Shown piece by piece: positions 2,620 through 39,058 of a stretch of 64,000 bases of DNA. The stretch's first letter is position 1, and the number at the start of each line of letters is the position of its first letter. Source of the DNA: Crambe crambe. Taxonomy: Eukaryota > Porifera > Demospongiae > Poecilosclerida > Crambeidae. Both the position numbers and the translations under genes were made by a program. The DNA lies in contig OZ004589.1 in the NCBI GenBank assembly GCA_963924555.1, forward strand, positions 4,898,001-4,962,000, given 5' to 3'. Below the pieces are notes generated by a model. It was not told where the DNA came from. It searched no databases and saw nothing but the letters and a program-made list of their open reading frames with translations.

Positions 2620-13457
<10,838 letters not shown>

Positions 13458-13888: not shown

Positions 13889-13985
13889 AAAGAACGTGTA
13901 CATAGGAATTGCAAATTCACTTTCTTTGCAGAGGGCTAGGATGCAGTATTCTTCTGTTGCACAGAAAATACAAAAGATATATAAT

Positions 13986-15205: not shown

Positions 15206-15242
<37 letters not shown>
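13986..15242. repeat. Five-copy 246-bp tandem satellite
   Basis: Units start at CAGAGAGTGCGGTAGCACTC at 13988, 14234, 14480, 14726 and 14969 (periods 246, 246, 246, 243). Each unit opens with a perfect hairpin (AGAGAGTGC, GGTA loop, GCACTCTCT) and contains a GC-rich box CGGCCGCGCGCGCCG. The unit boundary is a TTCTTCTTCTTCTCTATTAT tract, expanded to (TTA)n after the last copy. The array is absent from units 2 and 3. Confidence 0.93.
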
Positions 15243-16095: not shown

Positions 16096-19000
16096 TCACA
16101 GGTGGAATGCTGTAATCAAAATCATAATAATATCAAATCTGTGCCATTTCATGTTACATGATGACCTACCTTCCCTTATTTCAGAGGCAATTCCTCTCTG
16201 ACCAATAGCCTCAAGGGCATTGGTTAAACTCCTCCAGCTGGGAGTGCCACTGGTTTGAGTCACGCGATCTTCCTTCCTCAACCACGAGGCCACCATGTCT
16301 CCTTGGAAACTCGGGAGGGTTCTCATCCTCTGCAGGTGAGAGTAGCGCAAACCTAGTTCTGCACCAAGTTCCACCAGGTGATCGTTGCTTAAGTCCACCA
16401 GGAACCGTGCGACTTGATGGTGATCGTCCATTACAAGAGGATCTGGTTCATGTGGAGTTGGTTGTGGTGGAGAATGTGGCAGGGGAGATGAGACTGATGA
16501 GGTAGTGGGAGGCTCACAGTCTACAACAAAGTTTACAAGTATAACCTGTTAGCACTTCTGAGCATGTGTAGTGTAGTTGACAATCAGTGCCATATTGGGC
16601 TTTGTGTGTTTTGAAACTATGGGTTACAGGATGACATCACAATAACTATAACTATTTATAGTAACAAGAGAAAGGTAACTATAAGTGGACTGACCTTCAT
16701 TGTACCAGCATCTTCCATTGAGTGGGATGCGACTTCTTTTATGAGCTTTGTTACAGTGTATCTTGTGGTGAGTTCTTCCTTCCCTCACAGGATGCATCTG
16801 AGCACAATGTTCACACTTGAAGCATGCCATGGGCTCGAGCTTCTCTTTGCTGTAATGGAGGTCCTTCAAGGATCTGAGGATAGACTTCTCCAGGATCTGA
16901 CGCACGCTATTGCACACTTCTTTCAGGGGAGTATCACGATCATGATCGGACGAAAAGGGAAAGAATTTCACTTCCAAGTGGGTAGAGTAGACTTTCAAGG
17001 ACATCTCGTCTTGATCCCAAGGGGAGTGGACTTCGAAGGACACCTGATCTTTAAAGATTTTGTCATGGATTAGAACGAATGTCGTACCAACTTCTTCACT
17101 TTCAGCCTTCTCTGGGGTCATGAGGTGAGTAGATAAGACACCAAAGATACCCTTCGGGCAATGGTCACTCTTGAACTTGAATAAAAGTGGTAGAATATTG
17201 GTCACTGTGTCTCTTTTGGACTCTGGGACGTGGTTTAGGACACACGGAATGAAGTACCTCTTTTCCTGGTCTTCTTTGTCTCCAGGTGTAACAAGAGGAG
17301 TGACGATGCGGAGATGAACCAGAAGTTGAAGAAACTCCTTGGGTTTGATCTTATCATCGCTACTTACAACATTTTCAAAGGCTGATGCTGTGAGAATACC
17401 CTTTTCTCTGAAATCGAGTACCTCGCTTGTTCTAAGGAACTCACCAGAAAAGGTCTTCACGAGGAGATCGGTGATCTTGTCAAAGAGAACTTGAGGTTCT
17501 TTGACGATGATGTGCTTCAAGCCTTCTATGTCGAAGTATCGAATGACACCAATTCTGATGTGGAGGAAACGCAAGAGGTGAGACACCTGGTCCCCTTCGA
17601 TACCATGTTGGGCTGCAAGAACTTTGCATTCGTCCAGGGTCAAGATACTCTGCTTCATATTTTGGAGATCGAGGCAGAACAAGAGGTAACTGATGGGATA
17701 CTCGATGCTGAACTCTTTACGAGTGTTGATAAGGTGGTTAACATTCGATCGAATCTTCTGGAAGTCTTCTTCACTATCGGAAGTGTTGTCCACTGCAAAC
17801 ATGACGTTGTGATCATCACCAGCATACTGGACTAGATCTCGAAAGCCATTGCTCCGTATGATGGAATCCAGATATCGATTCAAGTTGTCAATCTTGTTAG
17901 TGGCTTCGGCTTCAGAAATGAGAATATCTTTGTGTGTGCCAATGATGAAAACCATGGGCTTGTGTGTCTTGACACTGTCTTCCTCTGACGTGTCCATGGC
18001 ATACACACTAGCAAGACACTGGAGCAAGGCTTCTTCAGTGGTGATGGAGGAGGTGTAGCAATTTATGGACTTGCTAGCACTCATCCTGTACTTGACGTAA
18101 AACTTGCTCTTGAAGTCAAGGTCGAGTCTAAAGACAAAGAAGAAAATGGACGGACCAAAGATCAAGAGAGGTAACATTTCCTGGAACTCAACCTGACCTC
18201 CAGTGTCCCTGAGATACAGGGAACAGGTTTTCTTCAGGTACTTTTTAACCTTACGAAAGCCATACTTCTTGATGACTGAATTGATATTTTCGGAGGAAAT
18301 AATCGTACCGACTTTTAGCTTTCGTCTTGGAAGAGGCACTGGTGCATCCTTCCTTTTGGAGTGTGGTTGTGCCACTCGAACTGAACCTACCTTCTTTGCA
18401 GGATCAGGTCGTGCAGAAGCACGTGTGTGGGCACTCTTTTCTGTAGGCTTTTGAGAATTTTCAGGAGGAATTTCGACATTCACACTCTCCTGCCCCAGCT
18501 GTCTCACATACGACACATCACATTCTATTTCTTCCCAAGTGTCACTCTCAAGTATCGTAACCGGGTGGAAAGTGGAAGGGTTGGTGACGTTAATGTCTAC
18601 AATGACGATGGTGTCACACACACCAGTGGAAGCAGTGAACTTCTTTCTTCCTCTGCCCAGCAAGCGATCCATTAAAGAACTCTTCCCCGAACCCGTGGGA
18701 CCAACGAACATGGAATGTGCTAATCTTCGATCGATCTTTCCACTTTTAGCGATGGCATTTTGAACTCCTCTGACGAACTCTTTCATGCCTGCTTCATCTT
18801 CAGGATCATCTGTACAGATTAAAATAGTTATATTGTTAATCAGGTAAGGGGTTACTAGTATTAACATGTGCAAGTCCCTAGTCATCACGTGCACACACAG
18901 CCTGACCAATCATACTGGGGCTAGCACGTGCATGCAAATCAGTGATTGGGAGTTCCACACATGCACATGCCTCATTCATACTTGGAAGACCTTCATAGTC

Positions 19001-22000
19001 ATGCTGTGCGGGTGCATGTTTTGCCTGGGCAAGGAAGTTAGCCATACCTACACCCTCCAAAAAGAACGAAACCAAAAAACAAAACAAAAAACAACAACAA
19101 AAACAACAACAACAACAACAACAAAAAAAAACATGATCCTCGACCTTAAAAAAAATTACATACAAAAAAAAAAAAAAAGAAGATAGTCAAGATCCTATTA
19201 CATTACTTGACCAGGCCAGTGTGTGTGGTCACAATTAATGGGAATATACAATATTCATTTGTTATTGGAATGCAACCTTTTATACTGGACTGACTGGCTC
19301 GTATTCAGGTTTGTGTGAATGCACACTGGCTAGCAACCCTACACCTAAAACATGTCTATGGCCCTGAATAGAAACATATTAGTCTTCAAGATAGTGAAGC
19401 CATGTCCATCTAATATTCCCCATGTCGATAATGATCAAAAAGTGGGAGGGACCATGGGCTCCCCTGTTCCTACACTGATGCCTTGCTCTGCACTGGTGTT
19501 GACAAGTGACTTGCACTCTACATGTTTGACTATGAGAGACAAGTATGTGGACATTCATAGGGTGAAATGACCTTGTGTGAATGACCTTATGTGGCTTGAC
19601 TATGTAATCTCAATGGTTTAAATTATGGTTGGTTGTTATGGTTACCTGGTATAGTGATAAGGTTGAAGCTGCACTCTCTGTCCAATCCAATCACAAGTAG
19701 TTTTGGTGGAGCAGCACTCGTAGACGAGGTCTTCTCTCCAGAGATGGTGATCATGGGAGGATAGTCAAGGAGGTTGGCATCAACTCCCTCAGGGAAAAGT
19801 ATGCTCTTCTTTGAGATCTGCATCAAACGACATCAATATTCAATCTAGATTGCTAATGTCTAATCTGTATACTAACCTGATTCACTGCATCAAACGTTAC
19901 ATCCCATTCTGTAGCATTCTCAGTTTTGAGGATCATATCTTCAGACACCATCTTTGCAGCGATCATGGCACTCATTGCTTCTCCCTTATTTGATCCACCT
20001 GGAAGCAGACCAGCTATGGCTCTCTCACAGTGCTGCAAGAACATGGCATTGGAATACACACCAACTGATAGTGAAATATCTCACCTTTGAGTAGACGGGA
20101 TGATCCAAGTGGGCTAAGAATATTGTTTTGAAAAAGGTGTCTTCTTTAACAGTCCCGAGCAGCCTCACAGTACACAAGAGACTTTCTGTTTTATGAATTA
20201 ATGGATAGATGGATAGATGTTACAATGAAATTGGCTCTTGTTACCTATTGACGATGTCCTGACTCTCTTAGCCACCCGCATTAATTGGAGAGACTTGAGA
20301 GCTATTTCTCCCTCCTGGTCTCCCACTTTGAAGACTCCCTTTGCTTCTTCGACTTCTCTAAAGGGATAGACCGGACCAGACCCCCTGTACTCTGGGGTGG
20401 ATCTGGCCGACAGAAATGCCAAGTCCTCACAATTTTCTTCACTTCGAAGATAAGCACAGTGTTGGATACGCACTCTCACATCTTTTCGCAACTTCCCATT
20501 CCCTCTGGGCTGTATCAGGTAGGCTGGACTAACTGCTTCATAGTCTGGAGGTAGCTCGAACGGTCCAGTCAAACAGGGTCGAACTGATAATGTCAGTCGA
20601 CTTTCTACTGGATCTAGTGCTCCTTCAGGTATGGAGAGAGAGATGCCTACATTGCTCATGTTTATCGTGACTGAAGAGGTGCTGATGGTCATTACTTTTG
20701 GATCTCCATGGAATGTAACATCAGGGGAGTTCATTTCTACATGGAGCGAGTCAGCTAAAAGAGGAGTAACAGATAACGAGTGTCCATTACTTGACATACT
20801 TTACATTTACCTTCAGTGTCTTTGTTGCAACCAAATTCAGTAATTAAAATGGATGCAATTTCTTTCTTCCCCAGAGAAGTTGCAAAATCAAGTGGTGTGC
20901 GATTATTATAATCACGAGCGTTAATATCAGCATTGTATTGAAGGATCAAAGTCCGAACTAGACCGACACTACCTCCTTCGCATGCAGAATGTAGCAGTGA
21001 TTCGCCATTTCTACCTTTGACGTTGGTGTCACTACCAAACTCTTTGATCAAAAGTAATGCAACTTCTTCTTTCCCAAAAGCAGCAGCTACATGGAGTGGC
21101 GTGTCATTCTCATCATTACGAGCATTGATATCAGCATTGTATTGAAGGATCAAAGTCCGAACTAGACCGACACTACCTCCGTAGCATGCAGAATGTAGCA
21201 GTGATCTGCCATAATTACCTTTGACGTTGGTGTCACTACCAAACTCTTTGATCAAAAGTAATGCAACTTCTTCTTTCCCAAAACCAGCAGCTACATGGAG
21301 TGGCGTGTCATTCTGACCATTACGAGCATTAATATCAGCATTGTATTGAAGGATCAAAGTCCGAACTAGACCGACACTACCTCCTTCGCATGCAGAATGT
21401 AGCAGTGATCCGCCATTATTACCTTTGACGTTGGTGTCACTACCAAACTCTTTGATCAAAAGTAATGCAACTTCTTCTTTCCCAAAAGCAGCAGCTACTT
21501 GGAGTGGCGTGTCATTCTGATCATTACGAGCATTAATATCAGCATTGTATTGAAGGATCAAAGTCCGAACTAGACCGACACTACCTCCGTAGCATGCAGA
21601 ATGTAGCAGTGATCCGCCATTATTACCTTTGACGTTGGTGTCACTACCAAACTCTTTGATCAAAAGTAATGCAACTTCTTCTTTCCCAAAAGCAGCAGCT
21701 ACATGGAGTGGCGTGTTATTCAAATTATTACGAGCATTGATATCAGCATTGTATTCAAGGATCAAAGTCCGAACTAGACCGACACTACCTCCATAGCATG
21801 CAGAATGTAGCAGGGATCCGCCATTATTACCTTTGACGTTGGTGTCACTACCAAACTCTTTGATCAAAAGTAATGCAACTTCTTCTTTCCCAAAACCAGC
21901 AGCTACACGGAGTGGCGTGTTATTCAGATTATTACGAGCATTGATATCAGCATTGCATTCAAGGATCAAAGTCCGAACTAGACCGACACTACCTCCTTCG

Positions 22001-22332
22001 CATGCAAAATGTAGCAGCGATCCGCCATTATTACCTTTGACGTTGGTGTCACTACCAAACTCTTTGATCAAAAGTAATGCAACTTCTTCTTTCCCAAAAA
22101 TAGCAGCTACATGGAGTGGCGTGTTATTCAGATCATTACGAGCATTGATATCAGCATTGTACTCACGAATCAATATCTGAACTAGACTGACATTACCTTG
22201 AGCGCAAGCGTGATGCAAGGGAGTCCATAGGTAGGAGTCTGTGGAGTTTACATGACACTCGCCACTTTGCAACAGTTTGCTGAGCTCGTGCACACGATTA
22301 GACTGGACAGCTCTGTGAAGGGGGGTAGCCAT
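16096..22332 (-). CDS. ANK-ZU5-UPA-like-GTPase-death domain protein, copy 1
   Basis: Eight exons: 22332-20811, 20754-20245, 20185-20085, 20032-19877, 19817-19646, 18809-16695, 16520-16170 and 16109-16096. All phases agree, giving 1646 residues. Residues 1-507 hold 15 ankyrin repeats, including six copies of a 68-residue two-repeat module. A ZU5 domain follows (~525-650; SIPEGALDPVESRL and YEAVSPAYLIQP), then a UPA-like stretch (~678-820). The GTPase part has G1 GPTGSGKS (~857), G3 DTGGQ (~1022) and G4 THKD (~1112), resembling Roc GTPases of DAPK/ROCO proteins, followed by a COR-like region. A Cys/His cluster lies at ~1480-1520 (CFKCEHC...HC...RCW). After a Ser/Pro-rich linker, a death domain ends the protein (~1560-1640). 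The combination suggests an intracellular scaffold that senses ligands through ankyrin repeats and recruits death-fold partners. The 60-nt last intron is in frame and open, so it could be retained. Confidence 0.85.
20902..22125 (-). repeat. Six 204-bp two-ankyrin modules (copy 1)
   Basis: Coding tandem repeat of exactly 68 codons. Invariant cores are GKEEVALLLIKEFGSDTNVK and GGSVGLVRTLIL. Variation is concentrated in the turn before each TPL or SLLH and at the residue before FG or GG (Ala/Ile/Gly; Glu/Tyr). Copy-number differences between units are exact multiples of 204 bp in exon 1 length (1522, 1930 and 706 nt). Confidence 0.95.
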
Positions 22333-22483
22333 TTGTAATTGTTTGCTATATACCTCCAGATATACGGGTCCGGGTTATTCTTGGCATACGATAATTATGT
22401 TTGAGGATCGCGGGAAAATTTTTGAAAACCACGCCCACTTTTCCAAAGCCACGCCCACTTTTAATGACTAATTAGCCCTTTGC
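22333..22483 (-). promoter_or_regulatory. Upstream region of ANK gene copy 1 with GC-box-like motifs
   Basis: On the coding strand, AAAAGTGGGCGTGG occurs twice within about 50 bp, at ~22430-22462, roughly 100-130 bp before the start codon. The same motif precedes copies 2 (~37980-38065) and 3 (~55888-55901). GGGCGTGG fits Sp/KLF-type sites. The motif may instead be part of a dispersed repeat, since it also appears at 56010. Confidence 0.35.
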
Positions 22484-22894
22484 CGGAGGAGGTACGACAC
22501 GAGTGCGCCTTTGCTGAGCTGGCAAGTCAAAAAAGATCATGACGTAACGCCAATTACTAGAATTCCGTGCATGTGACTTTCTTATTAAGCGATCGCGCGA
22601 AATTGCCAGCTATTAAAGTAAACTCAACTCCCATGGATAGGATAGACATTTGCATTCCATCTGAGACCAACGATGCGGAAGAATCTATATTATTGGCCAT
22701 CTTCTGTGGTAGACTCCCTAGCTCTAGATTCCCAAGCTCTACTCTCTCTAGCCCTCTGAGTGCAAGAAATATCCAAAAGTCACGTGTGAAGAATCCTAGA
22801 GGGCGATTACGTCATGGTTTTTGACTTGCCGGCCAGCTCAGCATCGCATGCAAAAGGCTAGGCGCACTCGTATGTCGTGATCGTACCTCCTCAG
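22484..22894. mobile_element. 411-bp MITE with ~90-bp TIRs and 9-bp target duplication
   Basis: The left end GAGGAGGTACGACACGAGTG and the right end (reverse complement GAGGAGGTACGATCACGACA) form imperfect ~90-bp terminal inverted repeats. GCCCTTTGC flanks both sides (22475-22483 and 22895-22903), and unit 2 shows the same place without the element. A 9-bp duplication with long TIRs is typical of Mutator-like elements. It sits just upstream of ANK gene copy 1 and encodes nothing recognisable. Confidence 0.8.
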
Positions 22895-24310
22895 GCCCTT
22901 TGCCTACCCAAAGCGTGCAATTTTGCACATTAGTCGTTTAAATGGGAAAACTCGCTTAAATGGATAAACTCACTGTTTACCATGCTCTCAGTGGATGGAC
23001 TCACTGATGGAGTTTAGTGGATGAATGTGCAGCTGAGGGTTTATGGATTTCCTTTTCCCCAAAGCTCTTGTTTTTTGTTATTTCCGTGGATTTACGTAAA
23101 TCAGCATTCGGAGAAAACCGGGGGTGGGGGAAGGAAAATACAGAGAAAAGGGAGGAAGGAGGAATAGTATGTAGTTACCAACAAAAGGATGTGAAGGTAT
23201 GTAATGAGCAATAACATCCTATCATAGAAAATGAGGATTCCCCACCCCAAATACTTACATGGTATCAATTCACCCACTCTATTAAGGATAGTCAGGGTTT
23301 CATACAGGAATTTTGGATAGAGGGAGGACTATGCAGTGGGTGTACTTGTGTGAGGCTACATAAGACACATTCTATCAGAGGGGGATCTCTCCTCTTTCCC
23401 CCTCGCTGTATGATAGCTGTATGATACCCTGATAGTTACCTTTTCATGCCCCCTCCCCCCGAGGGCTAGGTGACTACTAACATGTTAATTAAAAGCACAG
23501 GTCGATCAGTTGTGGAATAAGTTCAGTGTGGGACTCTAGTCTTGTGGTTCAGGCAGGGGAAAGTGGAATGAATCAATGTCCTGCAATTCAGAGAGTTCAT
23601 ATTGAGTGGATTCCACTGTACATGCATACTTACATGCATATGTACATGCATACTTACATGCATATGTACATGCATACTTACATGCATACGTACATGCATA
23701 TGTACATGCATATGTACATGCATACGTACATGCATACGTACATGCATACGTACATGCATATGCATGTACATGCATACGTACAACAAACGTACATGCATAC
23801 GTACATGCATACATAGCCTCTTCTTCTTCTTCTGTTATTTGCTGCCGTTTCATGATCATACAAGCCCTTCTGGGCAGCAAGGTGTAGTGCATCTATCTTC
23901 ATACATACATACATACATACATACATACATACATACATAGCAAAGTCATTAGGAAGAGTTGAATGTTTGTGTAATGTAATGTAACAGTTTGAGTTGAGTA
24001 AAATAAGCCTTCAGTGAATATTAATAAACTGGTCTTTTAGAGAAGATAAATAATAACAAAGTGGCATTATAAAGTGTGTGTGTGTACGTGACCTGTGTGT
24101 TAGTGGTAGTGTGGGAACTTGCACTATGCACACAGTGAAAACCTCAAACCTTTCCATTGACAAACCCTTTATAGAGAGCTATGTAGGTTACATGTTCTCT
24201 CCAAGTTTCTACTGTTGATTGAGTGCATTATGTAATCTCCTTTGCTTTGTATTCATGGTGAAATCTCAGAATATTGTATCAGAACACTCAAGACTGATGA
24301 TCTCATCACT

Positions 24311-24400
24311 GAGAGAGAGAGAGAGACCTTAGATAGTGAATCTCTATAAATGAACCAGAGAGAGAGAGAGACCTTAGGTAGTGAATCTCTATACATGCAC

Positions 24401-24438
<38 letters not shown>
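24311..24438. repeat. (GA)n blocks upstream of SYK exon 2, unit 2
   Basis: Three short (GA)n runs with the same spacer sequences as unit 1 but far fewer dinucleotides. Confidence 0.95.
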
Positions 24439-24441
<3 letters not shown>

Positions 24442-25012
24442 TATAGCTTAGATAGTGAATCTTTATATACCTTTATTATTATTATTATTATTATTTGCAG
24501 GGCAGTAAATTCCATTACATCATTTCCAGACACCTGGATGGCAGTGTTGCCATTCAAGACGGCACCAAGTTCGACAATCCCCTGGATCTGGTGCAGTACC
24601 ACACACGACGTGTGGATGGTCTCCTCACCACCCTCAAAGTCCCCTGTCGCAGGAACCCTGGCCAGCCTCCCCAGGGGTATCGTTTCATCACGCATGACGA
24701 GATGCAAGTTGCCATGAGACAAGCCGCTCTACAGCTGGGCTATTTGGTAAGGGATGGTCAATTGCATAAATGACGTTATGTATACAGTGTGATATGTAGC
24801 ATCCCCTTCAATGTGGAGTCCCTGTACAATTTGTTACACCAATACTGTTCCCATATTTGGCAATATGTAATAACTATCACCCCACACAAATGAGTCAAGT
24901 TTCTGTAAATAAACATAATGTTCTAACTCTGTCATTTATAAGTGAAAATAGTTACACATTCAAGAGACACCGACTATATTGTGGCTTAATACAGTGGAAC
25001 CACTCTCAATAT

Positions 25013-25149
25013 GGACCAGGACGCTCTCAACATGGACCAGGATGCTCTCAACATGGACCAGGACGCTCTCAACATGGACCAGGACGCTCTCAACATGGAC
25101 CAGGACGCTCTCAACATGGACCAGGACGCTCTCAACATGGACCAGGACA
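25013..25149. repeat. 21-bp VNTR, eight copies in unit 2
   Basis: Core GGACCAGGACGCTCTCAACAT with one GAT variant in the second copy. It is the expanded form of the two-copy locus at 8143-8216. Confidence 0.9.
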
Positions 25150-25682
25150 CTATACAGTGTGTCCCAATTTGAGGTGTCCTTATAAACAAACAAACAAACA
25201 AAAACAAACAAACAAACATCTGTAAAAGAACACTTTATGTGTCATCAATATTCACCTCTGAAATGAGGACACCAAATTTGCCATGTTAATTAAAGAGAGG
25301 TTCAACTGTGAGCTTACCACCATTATATAAAAGAAGCCACAGTTTAGTTCGCGTGTATATCTTTAATGTGTGCTATTATTTTCACTTACATATTGCCAAC
25401 ACTATGAAGTGTGGGGTGTTATGTTACCAAATATGGGAATATCATTGTGCAATCATTTCCTGCTGTGCAAACCAAGCCCTATGGCCCCTAAATCTAGCTG
25501 GATTATGCAGCATCATATCCAACCAAGCCTGGATTTGATTGATGGGCTTGGTTTGATATGATGTTGCAGTCAAAGTACTAGATTTGGGGCCATCCCTACT
25601 TAAATTTTTGTGCTCATGTACATAATTATATCCAGTGCTACGAATAGGAATAATTTATCAGCTCTTGAACAGTATATGCATG

Positions 25683-25762
<80 letters not shown>

Positions 25763-26860
25763 AACAATAATATATTCTTTTCTTCTTAGAACTTCTTTCT
25801 TCTATCTTCATTCCTTCTCCTTTCTACTTCTTTCTTTCATCCCTTCTACTCCTTTATTTCTCAAGCTAGCTTCTTGGCTATTCAATCAGCAACTTTCCAA
25901 TAGATTTACTCACCATCTTCCAGATACATTTTATAGCTAGTCTAAGCCTGCAAGACTAGGTGGGTGTGGCTTATTAATTTGTATGATGTAATGAGATGAA
26001 TCCACATTCTGAATATCCCTCTTCCATTCCTCTTATGATACTGACATCTCATAGGAACACCAAGTTAATGACGCACTGATGAAGAGAAGAAGTGCGTTTG
26101 AGCAGCTGGTTGGGGGGATTTTGCACCGTAAGCAGCTCTGGTTCCATGGAGCCATCAACCGGGAAGAGAGTGAGCAGAGAATGAGAAAGTTTGGCATCAG
26201 GGATGGACTCTTTCTGATTCGTGAACGTACACAGGTCTGTTTGTCTCCCTGTCTATCTGTCCGTCAGTCTATGTATTAATATTTTATGTATTTTTAGCTC
26301 CCCACAACAAAATACATACATAGGCATATAATTGAACACATGACAGAAGTTTTGGGCAATCCATTAAAGCAGAAATGGCTAATTATAAATAATTTGACCT
26401 GGAAATGTTGGATGTTCATGAAAACATCTTGCTACTGGCTCTCTGCTGCTTTGCCTTACCAACTTCTTGTATCATCCAGTGGATTATTATCATCATCAGG
26501 AGTATTGATCAACCTCTAGAGTTCTGTTAATTCTCTAGGTTGATCTACAGTATCATGCATGGACCACATTTCGTGCTGATGTGTATGGACCACCAGCCTC
26601 TGTGATGTATCGCCATTGAGAGTTGATAAACAACATTCATATACACAATACTTCATACCATAATTGGGCAAATGGGAGTTTGTGCATTCATGAATTAACC
26701 TCACATATACGGGTATTACATTCTTGGTTTTAGAGTTCATATCATAGCACATATACCTGCTCAGTATCCCTGTGCTTGGTCCAAGAGTATACTTGTGCTA
26801 TGTTTGCTATAGAGTTCCTTTATGTGTGTACATGTTTGCTATAGAGTTCCTTTAAGTGTG

Positions 26861-27069
<209 letters not shown>

Positions 27070-29087
27070 AACAGGTAAACAGCTTTGCTCTCTGCTTGTG
27101 CCACAGTGGACACATCTACCACTACCTGCTAGATATGGATACCCTGGGGTAGCTCTCCATCGAGAACGGTCGGAAGTTTGAGAATCTCTTGCAGGTGGTG
27201 GACCACTACTCCAGAACCCCCGACGGTCTCCTTCGCTCCCTTGGGGATGTTTGTCCCGTCAGCAACTTTTCGGATTTGAAGTCAGAGTCTCGTGTGAGGC
27301 ATGGCCCACTAAGGATTGATGATTCGGAGATTTCTGTCAAGGGAGAGTTAGGTAAAGATTGGGTATGTGTTGGTGGGGAGAGGGGTGGGGTACCAGAATG
27401 GTGGGAAGAGGGGCACCAGAATTGTGGGAGAGGGGAGAGGAGTGGGGCACCAGAATTGGGGGGGGGGGGGGTGGGAGGTGGTGGAGAGGGAGAGAGGGCT
27501 GGATCAGAAAGTCTGTACATAGATTTACTTCTATATTATGTATGTTTGCAGGTGCTGGCACCTTCGGTACAGTAAGGGCAGGAATTTACAGACCAAAGAA
27601 CGGAGGTCCTGAAGTGGAGTGTGCCATTAAGGTGCTCAAGCCTGCTGATGAATGCCCAAACCAAAAGGTAAATGGGAAGTGACCAGTAGTTGGTCCAATA
27701 CATAGCTCTCATCCTTTCACTTTCACCTTTCACCCTTCTCTCCTAATTCCCACCCATTTAACATGTCTATGTACACATTGTAAGTGCATGTACACTGTAT
27801 TTACATTGTGTATCTATACTGTATTTATATTGTCATTGTGTGTACATTATCATTATATTTACATGGTGTGTACATTGTCATTGTATGTATTTACATGGTG
27901 TGCACATTGTCATTGTATATATTTACATGGTATGTACATTGTCATTGTATGTACACTGTATTTACATGGTGTGTACATTATCATTGTGTGTACACTGTAT
28001 GTACATTGTATGTACACTGTATGAACACTATGAACATTAATTTTTATGACCATGTACATGTAGGCGGAGATTCTCCGAGAAGCAGATGCCATGGCAGGTC
28101 TGAACCATCCATACATTGTCAGACTCTATGGTAAGAGCACATGTATATAGTCTAAGAAGACTATTGGATCTCCATAACTCACAAATTTATTTTCTACCCT
28201 TCATACCTTTGACCTTAAATTTATATGCAATGATGTTATTGTGATGACCCTATATGTTACTCCAGGTATATGACCCTATATGTACATTACTCCAGGTATA
28301 TGTGTGAGCAATCCTATTCGACTGGTGATGGAGATCGCTCCTTTGGGTCCCCTCAACAAGTTCCTGAGAAGGCATCAGTAAGTCAGCCAACCTTCTGTTG
28401 GATGTTAAACAGTGGTGGTCCTTTCCCAGTGAATGTAAAGTATCTCTGTAGGTATAGTTAATGTAGAGATGTACTTATTATTCCTGATTGAAATGTTCAG
28501 TAAGAGAGGAAGTCCTTTATGTCCAATGCCTCCACTGTGTTTGTATTGAGATACTGCTCCATACCTTGACCATGCTTTATTTGTTCCACAACTTAGTCAT
28601 GCTGTTTGTATGTACATACGTAGGTCTTTAGCAGTCTCCAAAATCATGAATATGATAGTTGAAGTTTCTCAGGTTTGTTTGTTTATTTGTTTATTTGTTT
28701 GTTTGTTTGTTTGAGAAAATATTTGATAAAAATCAAGCATCTTTCCATACCCTTCAAGTCTCAAATCTAAGTAATTCTTTTAATATGAATAAGGCCACTT
28801 CTCTTTAATCTTTCAAATGATTATGACAATATTTACTTATAATTGTGTACGTACCTTAAGGGAACTATTACTAATTTTACGGGTACAAAATTTAGCAACT
28901 CATGCCTTCACCATTCAAAGTTATTTTCAAGCGGGGACAATATAAGTTTGAACTTTAAACTAGCTAAAATTTGTACTCACTAATAGTAGGTATAGCTATT
29001 GTTGTTATTGTTATTGTTGTTGTTGTGTTATTGTTTTGTCTCCAGTTTTAGGATGTCCACATTGAAGTATTGATTCCTTTACTGTAG

Positions 29088-29249
<162 letters not shown>

Positions 29250-31022
29250 TGAAGAAGAGATCAGAGTTAAAAGTTGCTACATCATATGTTATGCATGTGC
29301 TGGTCACTGATGTCAGTCATGAAAGTGGCAGACCGCCCTACCAAACTTTCATATGACTAATCTCTCATTCATGATTCATCTGTACAGGCTGAAACAGCTG
29401 GGAAGTGGCCCTTGAAGTGGTATGCACCTGAGTGCATCTTCTTTGCAAAGTTCGACAGCAAGTCAGACGTGTGGAGCTTTGGGGTGACCTCATGGGAAGC
29501 ATTCTCCTACGGGTCCAAACCTTACTCAGTAAGTGAACTCGTACTTCACCATCTCTACGACTACTCTGATTTATCAATTCATGAAGTACTTTCTTTCCCC
29601 AACATTCTGCCTATGTATGTATGTATGTATGTAGGGTCTCATTTGTTATTGAAAGTTCTCCTGTTTATTTTTCTAGGGTATGAAAGGTCAAGAAATAATG
29701 CAGATGTTGGAGAATAACCAGCGACTGCATTCTCCTGACAAATGCCCGCAGTCTGTGTATGAGGTCATGCTGAGGTGCTGGTCATGGAGGTATGTGTAAC
29801 CACTATAATGTAAGCACTTTGGAGCAAGTGCACATGCTCATTTTACCACGAAAAGAAACTGTAATGTTAGAACATTGGACTCCATAGTGTGTGGGGCTTG
29901 CTGCACTTGCCCCAATAATTACTAATTTTCATAGAGACTCTTGGTTCCTTGTCGGAGGGGAGTGGAACCTCTGATCCAAAATATAGTATACTCTATACCT
30001 CCAATCTCTCCTGAGTGTGCATTATTTGGAGATGGAGGATGTCACCTGACATCATTATTGGGGTGTGGTTACTATGCAGTGGTCACCTGACTTCCTTATT
30101 GGGGGGTGCGAGTAATATGCAGTGGTCACCTGACTTCAATATTCAATATGCAGTGGTCACCTGACTTCCTTATTGGGATGTGAATATAATATGCAGCAGT
30201 TCCTTATTAATAGGAGGTGTGATTAATGTGCTCACTTCCTTATTGGGAGTGTGATTTTCAAGACCAATTAAATTTTATTTGTCCTTCTCCCTCTCCCAGA
30301 GCTGAGGACAGACCCACCTTTGCTGAGCTCTCCACCATCCTTCGAGAAATCCAGAACTACATGTTGAAGGAAGAGGGTCGTCCTCCTCCCCAACGCCCAC
30401 CCAGACCCCAGCCACGCCTACCTCCTCCAAGAACCTGACATTTGCTATTGTATCAGAGCGTATGGGGATTTCCCTTTATTCATTATGGGTTTAAAGCAAA
30501 TAGACCCTTCTCTTCTTTTTTCATTGCATAATATATTGTATAATTTTTTTCTCTCCTCTCAGTCTCTCTCTATATCTTTCAACATAATTTTGTGGATTTT
30601 AAATAGAAAGTTTTTCTACTACACCAGTATTATTATTATTTGTCAAACTCTTATTGGTTCCAGGAGCTTATTTTGCTTTCTGCTTTCTTTGGATTTTTAT
30701 ATAGTAGTCCTAGATAGCATCTCCTTTTAAATGTTTGTCGTACATGAACTGTCCATACAATTACAACCCCATACTTAGTACCTAGCCTCTAGTCTGGCGT
30801 AGTTGACCCTATACCATATTTTCCTCCGGGAGGAAATGTGGTAAAGGGTCAACTACACCGGACTCTAGGAAAGAACGTGTACATAGGAATTGCAAATTCA
30901 CTTTCTTTGCAGAGGGCTAGGATGCAGTATTCTTCTGTTGCACAGAAAATACAAAGATATATAATATATAAAATAGAGCTGAACTTGAAATGTAACCAGC
31001 TGCAGCTGTAGATGAAGCCATA

Positions 31023-34000
31023 TCACAGGTGGAATGCTGTAATCAAAATCATAATAATATCAAATCTGTGCCATTTCATGTTACATGATGACCTACCTTC
31101 CCTTATTTCAGAGGCAATTCCTCTCTGACCAATAGCCTCAAGGGCGTTGGTTAAACTCCTCCAGCTGGGAGTGCCACTGGTTTGAGTCACACGATCTTCC
31201 TTCCTCAACCATGAGGCCACCATGTCTCCTTGGAAACTTGGGAGGGTTCTCATCCTCTGCAGGTGAGAGTAGCGCAAACCTAGTTCTGCACCAAGTTCCA
31301 CCAGGTGATCGTTGCTTAAGTCCACCAGGAACCGTGTGACTTGATGGTGATCGTCCATTACCAGAGGACGTGGTCCACGTGGAGTTGGTTGTGGTGGAGA
31401 ACATGGCAGGGGAGATGAGACTGATGAGGTTGTGGGAGGCTCACAGTCTACAACAAAGTTTACAATGATAACCTGTTAGCACTTCTGAGCATGTGTAGTG
31501 TAGTTAATTACTATGGCAATAAGTGAGTATGGATGTATTCAGCATTTTGGTTACAGGGTTTTTCAAAATCATTGCAACAGAACTTGAAGACTGACTGTTC
31601 CTTATTCAGAAGTAGTAGTAGTAGAGCTAGGCCTGGACCACCAAAACTAAGTTCTGGACTTTTGTGGCCAGTGGTTAACCAAACTACTCTGGCTACATCA
31701 ATGAAATGTGATAACCTGTGAGGGTGAAAGTTGGTTGTCCAAATGTAAAGTGACTGTGAGGAAACCAACATCTATTCAGGAACAGCCTCAAGTTTACACA
31801 GCTCTTTTAGATTTTGCATCTTACATTGCAATTCACTGTAGTAGGATGCCTTAATATAAGTGGACTGACCTTCATTGTACCAGCATCTTCCATTGAGTGG
31901 GATGCGACTTCCTTTACGAGCTTTGTTGCAGTGTATCTTGTGGTGAGTTCTTCCTGCCCTCACAGGATGCATCTGAGGACAATGTTCACACTTGAAGCAT
32001 GCCATGGGCTCGAGCTTCTCTTTGCTGTAATGGAGGTCGTTCAAGGATCTGAGGATTGACTTCTCCAGGATCTGACGCACGCTATTGCACACTTCTTTCA
32101 GGGGAGTATCGTGATCACGATCGGACGAAAAGGGAAAGAATTTCACTTCCAAGTGGGTAGAGTAGACTTTCAAGGACATCTCGTCTTGATCCCAAGGGGA
32201 GTGGACTTCGAAGGACACCTGATCTTTAAAGATTTTGTCATGGATTAGAACGAATGTCGTACCAATTTCTTCACTTTCAGCCTTCTCTGGGGTCATGAGG
32301 TGAGTAGATAAGACACCAAAGATACCCTTCGGGCAATGGTCACTCTTGAACTTGAATAAAAGTGGTAGAATATTGGTCACTGTGTCTCTTTTGGACTCTG
32401 GGACATGGTTTAGGATACACGGAATGAAGTACCTCTTTTCCTGGTCTTCTTTGTCTCCAGGTGTAACAAGAGGAGTGATGATGCGGAGATGAACCAGAAG
32501 TTGAAGAAACTCCTTGGGTTTGATCTTATTGTCACTACTCACATTTTCAAAGGCTGATGCTGTGAGAATACCCTTTTCTCTGAAATCAAGCACCTCACTT
32601 GTTCTAAGGAACTCACCAGAAAAGGTCTTTACGAGGAGATCGGTGATCTTGTCGAAGAGAATTTGAGGTTCTTTGACAATGATGTGCTTCAAGCCTTCTA
32701 TGTCGAAGTATCGAATGACACCAATTCTGATGTGGAGGAAACGCAAGAGGTGAGACACCTGGTCCCCTTCGATACCATGTTGGGCTGCAAGGACTTTGCA
32801 TTCGTCCAGGGTCAAGATACTCTCCTTTATATTTTGGAGATCGAGGCAGAACAAGAGGTAACTGATTGGATACTCGATGCTGAACTCTTTACGAGTGTTG
32901 ATAAGGTGGTTAACATTCGATCGAATCTTCTGGAAGTCTTCTTCGCTATCGGAAGTGTTGTCCACTGCAAACATGACATTGTGATCATCACCAGCATACT
33001 GGACTAGATCTCGAAAGCCATTGCTCCGTATGATGAAATCCAGATATCGATTCAAGTCATCAATCTTGTCAGTGCCTTCGGCTTTGGAAATGAGAATATC
33101 TTTGTGTGTGCCAATGATGAAGACCATCGGCTTGTGTGTCTGGACACTGTCTTCCTCTGACGTGTCCATGGCATACACACTAGCAAGACACTGGAGCAAG
33201 GCTTCTTCAGTGGTGATGGAGGAGGTGTAGCAATTTATGGACTTGCTAGCACTCATCCTGTACTCGACGCAAAACTTGCTCTTGAAGTCTAAGTCTAGTC
33301 TAAAGACAAAGAAGAAAATGGACGGACCAAAGATCAAGAGAGGTAACATTTCCTGGAACTCAACCTGACCTCCAGTGTCCCTGAGATACAGGGAACAGGT
33401 TTTCTTCAGGTACTTATTAACCTTACGAAAGCCGTACTTCTTGATGACTGAATAGATATTTTCGGAGGAAATAATCGTACCGACTTTTAGCTTTCGTCTT
33501 GGAAGAGGCACTGGTGCATCCTTCCTTTTGGAGTGTGGTTGTGCCACTCGAACTGAACCTATCTTCTTTGCAGGATCAGGTCGTGCAGAAGCACGTGTGT
33601 GGGCACTCTTTTCTGTAGGCTTATGAGAATTTTCATGAGAAATTTCGACATTCACACTCTCCTGTCCCAGCTGTCTCACATACGACACATCACATTCTAT
33701 TTCTTCCCAAGTGTCACTCTCCAGTATCGTAACCGGGTGGAAAGTGGAAGGGTTGGTGACGTTAATGTCTACAATGACGATGGTGTCACACACACCAGTG
33801 GAAGCAGTGAACTTCTTTCTTCCTCTGCCCAGCAAGCGATCCATTAAAGAACTCTTCCCTGAACCCGTGGGACCAACGAACATGGAATGCGCTAATTTTC
33901 GATCGATCTTTCCACTTTTAGCGATGGCATTTTGAACTCCTCTGACGAACTCTTTCATGCCTGCTTCATCTTCAGGATCATCTGTACAGATTAAAATAGT

Positions 34001-37000
34001 TATATTGTTAATCAGGTAAGGGGTTACTAGTATTAACATGTGCAAGTCCCTAGTCATCACATGCACACACAGCCTGACCAATCATACTGGGGCTAGCACG
34101 TGCATGCAAATCAGTGATTGGGAGTTCCACACATGCACATGCCTCATTCATACTTGGAAGACCTTCATAATCATGCTGTGCGGGTGCATGTTTTGCCTGG
34201 GCAAGGAAGTTAGCCATACCTACACCCTCCAAAAAGAACGAAACCCAAAAAAGCAAAAACAAAAAAAAAACAAAAAAAACAACAAAAAAACAAAAACAAA
34301 CAAAACAAAACAACAACAACAAAACCATGATCCTCGACCTTAAAAAAAAATACATACCAAAAAACAACAACAACAACAACAAAAACAAAACAAAACCAAA
34401 CCATGATCCTTGACCTTAAAAAAAATTACATACAAAAAAAAAAGAAAAAAAAGTCAAGATCCTATTACATTATTATGGAATGCAACCTTTTATACTGGAC
34501 TGACTGGGCTCGTATTCAGGTTTGTGTGAATGCACACTGGCTAGCAACCCTACACCTAAAACATGTCTATGGCCCTGAATAGAAACATTAGTCCAAGATA
34601 GTGAAGCCATGTCCATCTAATATTCCCCATGTCCAAAAAGTGGGAGGGACCATGGGCTCCCCTGTTCCTACACTGGTGCCTTGCTCTGCACTGGTGTTGA
34701 CAAGTGACTTGCACTCTACATGTTTGACTATGAGAGACAAGTATGTGACCTTGTGTGAATGACCTTATGTGGCTTGACTATGTAATCTCAATGGTTTAAA
34801 TTATGGTTGGTTGTTATGGTTACCTGGTATAGTGATAAGGTTGAAGCTGCACTCTCTGTCCAGTCCAATCACAAGTAGTTTTGGTGGACCAGCACTCGTA
34901 GATGAGGTCTTCTCTCCAGAGATGGTGATCATGGGAGGATAGTCAAGGAGGTTGGCATCAACTCCCTCAGGGAAAAGTATGCTCTTCTTTGAGATCTGCA
35001 TCAAATGACATCAATATTCAATCTAGATTGCTAATGTCTAATCTGTAAACTAACCTGATTCGCTGCATCAAACGTTACATCCCATTCTGTAGCATTCTCG
35101 GTTTCGAGGATCATATCTTCAGACACCATCTTTGCAGCGATCATGGCACTCATTGCTTTCCCCTTAGTTGATCCACCTGGAAGCAGACCAGCTATGGTTC
35201 TCTCACAGTGCTGCAAGAATATGGCATTGGAATACACACCAACTGATAATGAAAATATCTCACCTTTGAGTAGATGGGATGATCCAAGTGGGCTAAGAAT
35301 ATTGTTTTGAAGAAGGTGTCTTCTTTAACAGTCCTGAGCAGCCTCACAGTACACAAGAGACTTTCTGTTTTATGAATTAATGGATAGATGTTACAATGAA
35401 ATTGGCTCTTGTTACCTATTGATGATGTCCTGACTCTCTTAGCCACCCGCATTAATTGGAGAGACTTGAGAGCTATTTCTCCCTCCTGGTCTCCCACTTT
35501 GAAGACTCCCTTAGCTTCTTCCACTTCTCTAAAGGGATAGACCAGACCAGACCCCCTGTACTCTGGGGTGGATCTGGCCGACAGAAATGCCAAGTCCTCA
35601 CAATTTTCTTCACTTCGAAGATAAGCACAGTGTTGGATACGCACTCTCACATCTTTTCGCAACTTCCCATTCCCTCTGGGCTGTATCAGGTAGGCTGGAC
35701 TAACTGCTTCATAGTCTGGAGGTAGCTCGAACGGTCCAGTCAAACAGGGTTGAACTGATAATGTCAGTTGACTTTCTACTGGATCTAGTGCTCCTTCAGG
35801 TATGGAGAGAGAGATGCCTACATTGCTCATGTTTATCGTGACTGAAGAGGTGCTGATGGTCATTACTGTTGGATCTCCATGGAATGTAACATCAGGGGAG
35901 TTCATTTCTACATGGAGTGAGTCAGCTAAAAGAGGAGTAACAGATAACGAGTGTCCATTACTTGACACACTTTACATTTACCTTCAGTGTCTTTGTTGCA
36001 ACCAAATTCATTAATTAAAATGGATGCAATTTCTTTCTTCCCCAGAGAAGTTGTAAAATCAAGTGGTGTGTGATTATTATAATCACGAGCGTTAATATCA
36101 GCATAGTATTCAAGGATCAAAGTCCGAACTAGACCGACACTACCTCCGTAGCATGCAGAATGTAGCAGTGATCCGCCATTATTACCTTTGACGTTGGTGT
36201 CACTACCAAACTCTTTGATCAAAAGTAATGCAACTTCTTCTTTCCCAAAAGCAGCAGCTACATGGAGTGGCGTGTCATTCTCATCATTACAAGCATTGAT
36301 ATCAGCATTGTATTCAAGGATCAAAGTCCGAACTAGACCGACACTACCTCCGAAGCATGCAGAATGTAGCAGTGATCCGCCATTATTACCTTTGACGTTG
36401 GTGTCACTACCAAACTCTTTGATCAAAAGTAATGCAACTTCTTCTTTCCCAAAAGCAGCAGCTACTTGGAGTGGCGTGTCATTCTGATCATCACGAGCAT
36501 TGATATCAGCATTGTATTCAAGGATCAAAGTCCGAACTAGACCGACACTACCTCCTTTGCATGCAGAATGTAGCAGTGATCCGCCATTATTACCTTTGAC
36601 GTTGGTGTCACTACCAAACTCTTTGATCAAAAGTAATGCAACTTCTTCTTTCCCAAAACAAGCAGCTAGTTGGAGTGGCGTGTTATTCTCATCATTACAA
36701 GCATCGATATCAGCATTGTATTCAAGGATCAAAGTCCGAACTAGACCGACACTACCTCCATAGCATGCAGAATGTAGCAGTGATCCGCCATTATTACCTT
36801 TGACGTTGGTGTCACTACCAAACTCTTTGATCAAAAGTAATGCAACTTCTTCTTTCCCAAAAGCAGCAGCTACTTGGAGTGGCGTGTCATTCTGATCATC
36901 ACGAGCATTGATATCAGCATTGTATTCAAGGATCAAAGTCCAAACTAGACCGACACTACCTCCTTCGCATGCAGAATGTAGCAGTGATCTGCCATAATTC

Positions 37001-37911
37001 CCTTTGACGTTGGTGTCACTACCAAACTCTTTGATCAAAAGTAATGCAACTTCTTCTTTCCCAAAAGCAGCAGCTACTTGGAGTGGCGTGTCATTCTGAT
37101 CATCACGAGCATTGATATCAGCATTGTATTCAAGGATCAAAGTCCGAACTAGACCGACACTACCTCCTTCGCATGCAGAATGTAGCAGTGATCTGCCATT
37201 ATTACCTTTGACGTTGGTGTCACTACCAAACTCTTTGATCAAAAGTAATGCAACTTCTTCTTTCCCAAAACAAGCAGCTAGTTGGAGTGGCGTGTTATTC
37301 AGATCATTACAAGCATTGATATCAGCATTGTATTCAAGGATCAAAGTCCGAACTAGACCGACACTACCTCCTTCACATGCAGAATGTAGCAGTGATATGC
37401 CATTATTACCTTTGACGTTGGTGTCACTACCAAACTCTTTGATCAAAAGTAATGCAACTTCTTCTTTCCCAAAAATAGCAGCTACATGGAGTGGCGTGTT
37501 ATTCAGATTATTACGAGCATTGATATCAGCATTGTATTCAAGGATCAAAGTCCGAACTAGACCGACACTACCTCCTTCACATGCAGAATGTAGCAGTGAT
37601 CCGCCATAACCACCTTTGACGTTGGTGTCACTACCAAACTCTTTTATCAAAAGTAATGCAACTTCTTCTTTCCCAAAAGCAGCAGCTACATGGAGTGGCG
37701 TGTTATTCAGATTATTACGAGCATTGATATCAGCATTGTACTCACGAATCAATATCTGAACTAGACTGACATTACCTTGAGCGCAAGCGTGATGCAAGGG
37801 AGTCGATAGGTAGGAGTCTGTGGAGTTTACATGACACTCGCCACTTTGCAACAGTTTCCTGAGCTCGTGCACATGATTAGACTGGACAGCTCTGTGAAGG
37901 GGGGTAGCCAT
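31023..37911 (-). CDS. ANK-ZU5-UPA-like-GTPase-death domain protein, copy 2
   Basis: Eight exons: 37911-35982, 35925-35416, 35364-35264, 35210-35055, 34995-34824, 33981-31870, 31447-31097 and 31036-31023. All phases agree, giving 1781 residues. The start was set at the ATG before ATPLHRAV, conserved in all copies, rather than an upstream in-frame ATG at 38010 that lies in non-conserved flank. It has 19 ankyrin repeats, with eight 68-residue modules (36073-37704). ZU5, UPA-like, GTPase (GPTGSGKS, DTGGQ, THKD), Cys-rich and death-domain segments follow in the same order as copy 1. Exon 6 is one codon shorter. Module residues differ from copy 1 mostly at turn and helix-tip positions (Glu/Tyr/Lys/Phe before GG; Ala/Ile/Cys before FG). 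It appears intact and lies 585 bp from the 3' end of SYK copy 2 in convergent orientation. Confidence 0.85.
36073..37704 (-). repeat. Eight 204-bp two-ankyrin modules (copy 2)
   Basis: Same 68-codon module as copy 1, with two additional copies. One module carries Trp in place of Arg in the GLVRT motif. Confidence 0.95.
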
Positions 37912-39058
37912 TTGTTTGCTATACACCTCCGGATATACCACATGGTACACTACGATAACGCGCGGGAAAAATTTTGAAAACCATGCCCACTTTTCCAAAA
38001 CCACGCCCACTTTTAATGACTTTAATCCTTTGCCTACCTAAAGCGTGAATACCACGCCCACTTTTAATGACTAACCCTTTGCCTACCCAAAGCGTGAAAT
38101 TTTGCACATTAGTCGTTTAAATGGGAAAACTCGCTTAAATGGATAAACTCACTGTTTACCATGCTCTCAGTGGATGGACTCACTGATGGAGTTAAGTTTA
38201 CTACCATATAGTTTAGTGGATGAATGTGCAGCTGAGGGTTTGTGGATTTCCTTTTCCCCAAACTTTGATAAGCTCTTGTTTTTTGTTATTTCCGTGGATT
38301 TATGTAAATCAGCATTCGGAGAAAACCGGGGGGTGGGGGAAGGAAAATACAGAGAAAAGGGAGGAAGGAGGAATAGTATGTAGTTACCAACAAAAGGATG
38401 TGAAGGTGGGTGTAATGAGCAATAACATCCTATCATAGAAAATGAGGATTCCCCACCCCAAATACTTACATGGTATCAATTCACCCACTCTATTAAGGAT
38501 AGTCAGGGTTTCATACAGGAATTTTGGATAGAGGGAGGACTATGCAGTGGGTGTACTTGTGTGAGGCTACATAAGACACATTCTATCAGAGGGGGATCTC
38601 TCCTCTTTCCCCCTCGCTGTATGATAGCTGTATGATACCCTGATAGTTACCTTTTCATGCCCCCTCCCCCCGAGGGCTAGGTGACTACTAACATGTTAAT
38701 TAAAAGCACAGGTTGATCAGTTGTGGAATAAGTTCAGTGTGGGACTCTAGTCTTGTGGTTCAGGCAGGGGAAAGTGGAATGAATCAATGTCCTGCAATTC
38801 AGAGAGTTCATATTGAGTGGATTCCACTGTACATGCATACGTACATGCATACGTACATGCATACATAGCCTCTTCTTCTTCTTCTTCTGTTATTTGCTGC
38901 CGTTTCATGATCATACAAGCCCTTCTGGGCAGCAAGGTGTAGTGCATCTATCTTCATACATACATACATACATGAAACCTTGAAACCTTGAAACAGCCCA
39001 AAGCTCGAAAAGCTGTCATACATACATACATACATACATACATACATACATACATACA

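Follow-up and report, generated by a model that had tools for sequence, protein, structure and literature searches.

Near-identical ankyrin modules diversified at predicted contact positions in a candidate recognition receptor family of the sponge Crambe crambe

Invertebrates have neither antibodies nor the major histocompatibility complex, and how they achieve diversity of recognition is a long-standing question, as is the basis of self/non-self recognition in sponges. A 64,000-nucleotide stretch of Crambe crambe chromosome 9 (hereafter the window; C12:4898001-4962000 of assembly odCraCram1.1) carries arrays of near-identical ankyrin modules. Our analysis revealed that hairpins and inner helices carry an excess of amino-acid change, whereas the core, outer helices and downstream domains are conserved. 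We consider it likely, judging from sequence, that the arrays form the variable part that binds ligand in a multigene, germline-diversified family of intracellular recognition receptors. The assembly is reported at 143.20 Mb in 124 scaffolds, with Hi-C scaffolding and manual curation (PMC12166358); we searched 143.14 Mb in 119 contigs and analysed one haplotype. Contigs C3, C5, C6, C11, C12, C16 and C19 are chromosomes 2, 3, 4, 8, 9, 13 and 16, respectively.

Tandem Repeats Finder located 204-bp arrays on the minus strand at positions 20914-22198, 36062-37777 and 55153-55644 of the window, holding 6, 8 and 2 full modules, each module encoding two 34-residue ankyrin repeats. An earlier sequence-only reading had counted the same modules, and its three arrays are borne out, the third lying beyond the interval that it described. 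The arrays belong to three tandem gene copies spaced ~15-19 kb apart, all on the minus strand and each with ankyrin, ZU5, Roc-COR and death-like exons in that order (Table 1); order and strand suggest that the exons of one copy are joined into a single gene. Within the ankyrin exon a cap precedes the 6, 8 or 2 modules and a terminal cap follows them. An assembly artefact, with haplotypes placed in tandem, is unlikely, given synonymous divergence (dS) of 0.06-0.16 between the three Roc-COR exons and the curated Hi-C scaffolding.

Downstream of the arrays, COR-A exceeded its Pfam cut-off in copies 1 and 3 and fell just under it in copy 2. The death-like exon of the window gave no Pfam match by itself at E-values up to 0.01, while a profile built from 20 sequences of this genome had two matches at E ≤1 among solved sequences, namely 'PIDD-CC' (E 0.0029) and 'Leucine-rich repeat and death domain-containing protein' (E 0.011), the latter of which we take to be PIDD. 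Five of the 20 sequences also matched Pfam Death at E-values up to 0.1 (best 1.2e-4). The domain thus appears to be related to PIDD. Death-like domains of this kind lie at no fewer than 150 places in the genome (341 candidates), far outside the ankyrin/Roc-COR family.

The family extends beyond the window. Module DNA gave 365 matches genome-wide, with close copies at C3 7.48-7.83 Mb and C5 1.20-1.24 Mb. ZU5 had at least 150 matches (150 scored of 291 candidates), among which 28 reached at least 77% identity over most of the query (22 on chromosome 2, 3 on chromosome 3 and 3 in the window); a 61-residue ZU5 piece with 89% identity lies at C5 8.88 Mb. For Roc-COR there were 63 matches, and the 30 at 86% identity or more, several of them partial, divide as 23, 4 and 3 between the same places; for the death-like exon, 13 of the 150 scored among 341 candidates reached at least 68% identity (7, 3 and 3). 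We read 28 arrays, 25 of them outside the window (21 on chromosome 2 and 4 on chromosome 3), and in each of the 28 the reading frame stays open across every module and a cap lies upstream. Module number per paralogous array ranges from 2 to 13. Requiring at least 34 of 68 identities to a window-derived consensus, a threshold that misses diverged modules, gave 202 modules; two irregular ones were dropped, leaving 154 on chromosome 2, 30 on chromosome 3 (one with a 9-bp shift at its start) and 16 in the window. At C3:7759591 a ZU5 exon has no module of this type within the surrounding 3606 bases, a possible array loss.

The modules are nearly uniform outside a few positions. The 16 window modules differ on average by 11.0 of 204 nucleotides, with internal conservation above 85%, and among the 154 chromosome 2 modules a single codon is strongly dominant at most positions, silent base included. 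Diversity there is concentrated at module positions 4, 6, 10, 11, 14, 15, 37, 40, 45, 48 and 61, eleven positions chosen post hoc, which we take to be designed-binder repeat positions 3, 5, 9, 10, 13 and 14 in the first repeat and 2, 5, 10, 13 and 25/26 in the second. In designed ankyrin repeat proteins (DARPins) the randomised repeat positions are, on our assumption, 2, 3, 5, 13, 14 and 33; these supplied a contact set of 12 canonical binder positions, fixed beforehand, with repeat position 33 falling at module positions 35 and 1. Randomised positions or the concave face of such binders are treated in general terms in PMC8683736, PMC4132713 and PMC8229355. In the window this set (12 of 68 codons) accounts for 72% of the nonsynonymous differences but 10% of the silent ones, so the two kinds are not spread evenly over the module. 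The residue differences listed in the sequence-only reading were all found in the translations; its claim of variation at ligand-contact positions only holds as a strong concentration, 'only' being too strong, since replacements outside the set occur at module positions 2, 10 (TPL-H/Q/R), 11, 45, 55, 61 and 63.

The fold is that of an ordinary ankyrin, the PDB sequence and fold lists being led by ankyrin-1 and ankyrin-2, then DARPins. A predicted structure of array 2 (mean predicted local distance difference test 89, predicted template modelling score 0.75) places helix A at module positions 8-14 and 42-49 and helix B at 18-26 and 52-62; surface placement rests on these helix boundaries and on knowledge of the ankyrin family rather than on computed exposure. 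Dyrka et al. (PMC4986451) place the binding interface of ankyrin repeats on the concave side, formed by the inner helices together with the hairpin loops. On chromosome 2, nonsynonymous diversity (piN) in the first half of the module was 0.142 in loop 1, 0.172 in helix A1, 0.229 in the turn and 0.032 in helix B1, against a synonymous diversity (piS) of 0.052; in the second half it was 0.054 in loop 2, 0.127 in helix A2, 0.014 in the turn, 0.049 in helix B2 and 0.020 in loop 3. In the window piN was 0.156 in loop 1, 0.134 in helix A1, 0.000 in helix B1 and 0.037 in helix B2 (piS 0.039). Outer helix B1 is thus among the least variable elements in both clusters. The inner-helix L/A/A residues, which we take to be buried, are nearly invariant (152 of 154 each on chromosome 2). 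By these model helices and family knowledge, the variation does not map mainly to the buried or back surface, although avoidance of helix B by the variable positions is a trend only (1 of 11, P 0.10, counted as sites).

We assessed selection by counting methods, namely piN/piS ratios, bootstrapping over genes and changes counted on minimum spanning trees. The ratio of contact piN to module piS was 5.79 in the window (gene bootstrap 2.96-7.63, with three genes to resample) and 4.62 on chromosome 2 (3.56-6.69), and at non-contact codons piN/piS was 0.48 in the window and 0.43 on chromosome 3. Random sets of 12 codons equalled the contact piN in 0 (window), 1 (chromosome 2) and 0 (chromosome 3) of 20,000 trials each, and pairs from the same array alone changed the contact ratios little (6.64, 4.90 and 1.70). 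Nine variable positions that the sequence-only reading had taken from the window, tested on modules outside it, gave piN/piS(all) of 5.19 (95% gene bootstrap 3.98-7.37) on chromosome 2 (154 modules) and 1.61 (1.36-1.79) on chromosome 3 (30 modules). Between closest neighbours, replacement and silent changes numbered 41 and 2 at contact codons versus 26 and 15 elsewhere in the window, 248 and 14 versus 327 and 83 on chromosome 2, and 132 and 15 versus 179 and 108 on chromosome 3. These counts use a variant contact set that puts repeat position 33 at module positions 34 and 68, as does the chromosome 16 ratio below; the contact ratios under the variant and correct (35, 1) sets are 5.65/5.79 (window), 4.56/4.62 (chromosome 2) and 1.57/1.54 (chromosome 3).

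Codons with excess replacements, identified from closest modules on the minimum spanning tree relative to the silent rate (5% Benjamini-Hochberg), number 7 of 68 in the window (3, 4, 10, 14, 37, 40, 48), 15 on chromosome 2 (1, 4, 6, 10, 11, 14, 15, 22, 36, 37, 45, 48, 49, 61, 66) and 5 on chromosome 3 (1, 4, 15, 37, 48), with codons 4, 37 and 48 in all three. The other exons of the same genes served as controls: the ratio of nonsynonymous (dN) to synonymous divergence was 0.30-0.34 for Roc-COR, dN was 0.003-0.015 and dS 0.027-0.051 for ZU5, and dN was 0.004-0.015 and dS 0.039-0.064 for the death-like exon. The neutral yardstick was silent divergence in ZU5, there being no usable intron after the array. 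Diversifying selection on the arrays is well supported, and modular expansion with such selection at a binding surface, as first proposed for the window, is supported across the 200 modules in 28 arrays.

A distinct array on chromosome 8 (C11:7529900-7533300) has at least 32 near-identical 33-residue ankyrin modules, 15 of them distinct, which vary mainly at repeat positions 1, 3, 5, 10 and 13, so on the same face as the window modules; contact piN was 0.191 versus a piS of 0.0095, position 10 having been added post hoc to the contact set. A relative on chromosome 16 gave a contact ratio of 1.62 (1.37-1.86, resampling modules). Elsewhere, open ankyrin frames of 4443 residues (C6 ~8.87-8.88 Mb) and 3502 residues (C16 ~1.98 Mb) were seen, and ankyrin and ZU5 matches share regions on several chromosomes.

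Several results weigh against a recognition receptor family diversified throughout in this way. The excess on chromosome 3 is weak (contact ratio 1.54, 1.23-1.76), the first turn (1.37) and loop 1 (1.04) being the only elements above piS there and the turn alone exceeding 1.1. On chromosome 2 the non-contact codons reach 1.29 (0.89-2.23), falling to 0.60 only after removal of the post hoc variable positions; selected codons 22 and 66 are not obvious contact positions; and the ankyrin cap before the arrays has a piN/piS of 1.13, so some selective pressure may extend to the cap. The very long chromosome 4 array is near neutral (1.13, 1.03-1.23, position 10 again added post hoc), and with the chromosome 8 and 16 results this makes the pattern recurrent but not universal among ankyrin arrays here. 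The longest array of the family (13 modules, C5:1211800-1215700) is without the usual terminal cap and, in the stretch examined, has a ZU5 match of only 126 nucleotides, so it may be a broken gene; a partial Roc-COR lies nearby. As to the domains, Roc scored 22.9-23.6 bits, under the Pfam cut-off of 27, with GPTGSGKSS and DTGGQ present in the open reading frame. Lastly, the 7 death-like exons on chromosome 2 (at 68% identity or more, 150 of 341 candidates scored) compare with 23 Roc-COR matches, so that a death domain is indicated for some family members rather than all.

A role in recognition nevertheless fits the combination of ankyrin, ZU5, Roc-COR and death-like domains. We postulate a cytosolic protein running from an ankyrin solenoid, the sensor, through ZU5 to a Roc-COR GTPase, the switch, and a PIDD-like death domain, the output. 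Each array would be a germline-encoded paratope, its specificity set by module number, module order and contact residues. Ligand binding may alter the state of Roc-COR and bring death domains together, which would trigger a death or inflammatory response. The ligand would be non-self, whether a microbe, a symbiont product or another sponge.

The alternative that survives best is that the arrays diversified for many endogenous partners, in scaffolding or the regulation of cell adhesion as with ankyrin-1 and ankyrin-2, which head the sequence and fold matches and presumably also combine ankyrin repeats with ZU5 and a death domain; the ZU5 of ankyrin-B appears among the literature matches listed. 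We regard this as improbable, if less so than the alternatives that follow: recent tandem copies with piN above piS are unexpected for scaffolds, Roc-COR and a PIDD-like death domain suggest a role in regulated signalling, and the same pattern in fungi has been tied to non-self recognition (Dyrka et al., PMC4986451).

Neutral drift would leave concave-face positions free while the fold constrains the rest, with array homogenisation sharpening the contrast. The variable positions are indeed exposed, on family knowledge, the invariant ones include core residues, and the ratio is near one on chromosomes 3 and 4. Yet drift limits piN to about piS, and contact piN is 4.6-5.8 times piS on chromosome 2 and in the window, while helix B1 is conserved. 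Nor is piS in the chromosome 2 modules abnormally low: at 0.052 it differs little from the 0.064 of the ZU5 exon next to them (21 of 22 genes, with piN/piS 0.54). We therefore consider drift very unlikely. A mutational hot spot or targeted hypermutation of contact codons, without selection for amino-acid change, is slightly more improbable still. It would accommodate the finding that, among chromosome 2 codon pairs that differ, 45% do so by two or three bases at the 11 variable codons versus 5% elsewhere, but is strongly argued against by the third base, which in 10 of those 11 codons is nearly constant (136-153 of 154 modules, seven codons reaching 148-153), codon 15 being the exception; the first base varies, and in most the second too, and targeted mutation should not spare silent bases in register. 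To selection for dissimilar neighbouring repeats, as a guard against aggregation or recombination, we give hardly any credence: only 2 of 172 adjacent pairs are identical at 16 surveyed positions, but neighbours resemble each other slightly more than do modules further apart in the same array (6.02 versus 6.67 differences), DNA stability would favour silent change, which is rare here, and avoidance of aggregation would not stay on one face.

How the diversity of these putative receptors arises can be followed between modules. For 198 of the 200 modules the closest one is found on their own chromosome, and their own array supplies it for 11 of 16 in the window, 41 of 147 distinct sequences on chromosome 2 and 17 of 30 on chromosome 3 (random expectation 0.37, 0.05 and 0.29), which indicates concerted evolution within clusters and, in part, within arrays. 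A recent duplication links C3:7482700, an array of 7 modules, with C3:7650000, which has 8: the two show 5 mismatches over 700 nucleotides downstream and 99% identity upstream over two BLAST segments, one of 325 and one of 117 nucleotides. Of the modules that correspond, two pairs show no difference, two a single base change and one pair two changes, while the module 4 pair differs at codons 11, 14, 15 and 20 only. Module 1 of C3:7482700 equals module 1 of C3:7650000 to nucleotide 66 and module 2 from nucleotide 53 on, and so appears to be two modules fused in register, one module having been lost, or the product of the reverse event. Four-gamete counts on chromosome 2 gave many incompatible site pairs, which recombination and recurrent mutation both fit. 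The history computed here is one of tandem duplication of genes and modules, homogenisation within clusters and in-register fusion.

The closest functional analogue may be the ankyrin class of fungal NLRs, which the Crambe genes would resemble in their manner of working. Such fungal receptors, for example Podospora Pa_3_8560, have highly conserved ankyrin repeats, and their diversified-repeat pattern has been linked with non-self recognition (Dyrka et al. 2014, PMC4986451). Near-identical modules, variable module number, positive selection at the concave face and signs of concerted evolution are common to both, as far as the fungal account goes. The fungal proteins combine NACHT or NB-ARC with fungal effector domains, whereas the Crambe genes have Roc-COR, ZU5, a death-like domain and a 68-residue two-repeat module; repeat number here varies between paralogues, while the fungal criterion is polymorphism between individuals. 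No NACHT or NB-ARC domain is among the Pfam matches listed for the NTPase exon of the window, so we do not claim membership of the NLR family.

Two animal proteins share parts of the architecture. PIDD1, which we take to be LRR-ZU5-ZU5-death, resembles the Crambe genes in ZU5 and in the death domain that matches PIDD, provided the exons are joined as their order and strand suggest; the Crambe genes differ in having an ankyrin array in place of the leucine-rich repeats (LRR) and Roc-COR between ZU5 and the death domain. DAPK1, presumably kinase-ankyrin-Roc-COR-death, shares ankyrin, Roc-COR and death-like domains with the presumed Crambe gene, which differs in its ZU5, its hypervariable multicopy arrays and the absence of a kinase among the minus-strand exons examined. 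On the predicted exon structure, the kinase exons of the window lie on the opposite strand and are tyrosine-kinase-like, DAPK having a Ser/Thr kinase. DARPins likewise carry their diversity on the concave side of a scaffold that is otherwise constant (PMC8229355), and DARPin chains are among our sequence and fold matches; the Crambe arrays are natural, have 34-residue repeats and vary additionally at repeat positions 9, 10 and 25/26.

Among sponges, large expanded families of NACHT-LRR receptors, some with death domains, are described in demosponges such as Dysidea avara (PMC12909245); these combine NACHT with LRR rather than Roc-COR with ankyrin, and the main text of that report mentions NACHT-Ank and NACHT-Zu5 without using the words 'roco' or 'ankyrin'. 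Genes with ankyrin repeats and DEATH domains, other than those studied here, are reported to be up-regulated by microbial patterns in two other sponges (PMC6208332), which accords with the proposed role. Among the literature matches listed, none describes animal ankyrin receptors that diversify and carry Roc-COR. Tentatively, the genes may represent a class of sponge innate immune or allorecognition receptors parallel to NLRs, in which Roc-COR would replace NACHT, the ankyrin arrays would form a DARPin-like germline library of hundreds of modules re-sorted by module exchange, and death domains, possibly with a co-duplicated Syk-like kinase, would provide the output. If this is true, they would be an animal counterpart of fungal ankyrin NLRs assembled from a different switch and output, and a natural analogue of DARPin libraries. 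A single genome would then supply a clear sensor, a clear surface that varies, a way of diversifying it and a plausible output in death signalling, all open to test in a collectable sponge.

Table 1. Exons of the three gene copies, with positions in the window
Feature	Position	Strand	Details
Copy 1 ankyrin exon	20755..22332	-	525-aa open reading frame (ORF); Pfam Ank_2 E 8.3e-119; modules 1-6 at ~20917-22140
Copy 1 ZU5 exon	20198..20797	-	Pfam ZU5 E 6.4e-07, 30.0 bits (cut-off 21)
Copy 1 Roc-COR exon	16624..18909	-	COR-A 37.2 bits (cut-off 35.3); Roc 23.6 bits (cut-off 27); GPTGSGKSS and DTGGQ in ORF
Copy 1 death-like exon	16096..16548 (domain ~16183-16443)	-	Profile of 20 relatives matches death-domain structures
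Copy 2 ankyrin exon	35926..38010	-	694-aa ORF; modules 1-8 at ~36088-37719
Copy 2 ZU5 exon	35192..35968	-	Pfam ZU5 E 4.5e-07
Copy 2 Roc-COR exon	31772..34081	-	COR-A 32.9 bits, just under cut-off 35.3; 95% identity to copy 1
Copy 2 death-like exon	31026..31373	-	98% identity to copy 1
Copy 3 ankyrin exon	55017..55778	-	253-aa ORF; modules 1-2 at ~55179-55586
Copy 3 ZU5 exon	54295..55059	-	ORF; protein identity 99% to copy 1, 98% to copy 2
Copy 3 Roc-COR exon	51010..53280	-	COR-A 40.6 bits (cut-off 35.3)
Copy 3 death-like exon	46198..46545	-	97% identity to copy 1

Between the receptor copies, at 26055-30435 on the plus strand, are tyrosine kinase exons with at least one SH2 domain (Pfam SH2 E 2.6e-7; kinase E 4.7e-19 and 5.2e-18). 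Aside from a top row labelled EGFR, the closest solved relatives of the kinase exon are ZAP-70 and SYK. Kinase pieces recur with each receptor copy, at ~7600-13457 and from ~39700, and the kinase appears to have been copied along with the receptor genes, which lie on the other strand. A 246-bp tandem repeat of five copies (13985-15214) was reported beside the first gene copy only. Just outside the third gene copy, an ORF on the plus strand (58328-59161) matches a calcineurin-like phosphoesterase.

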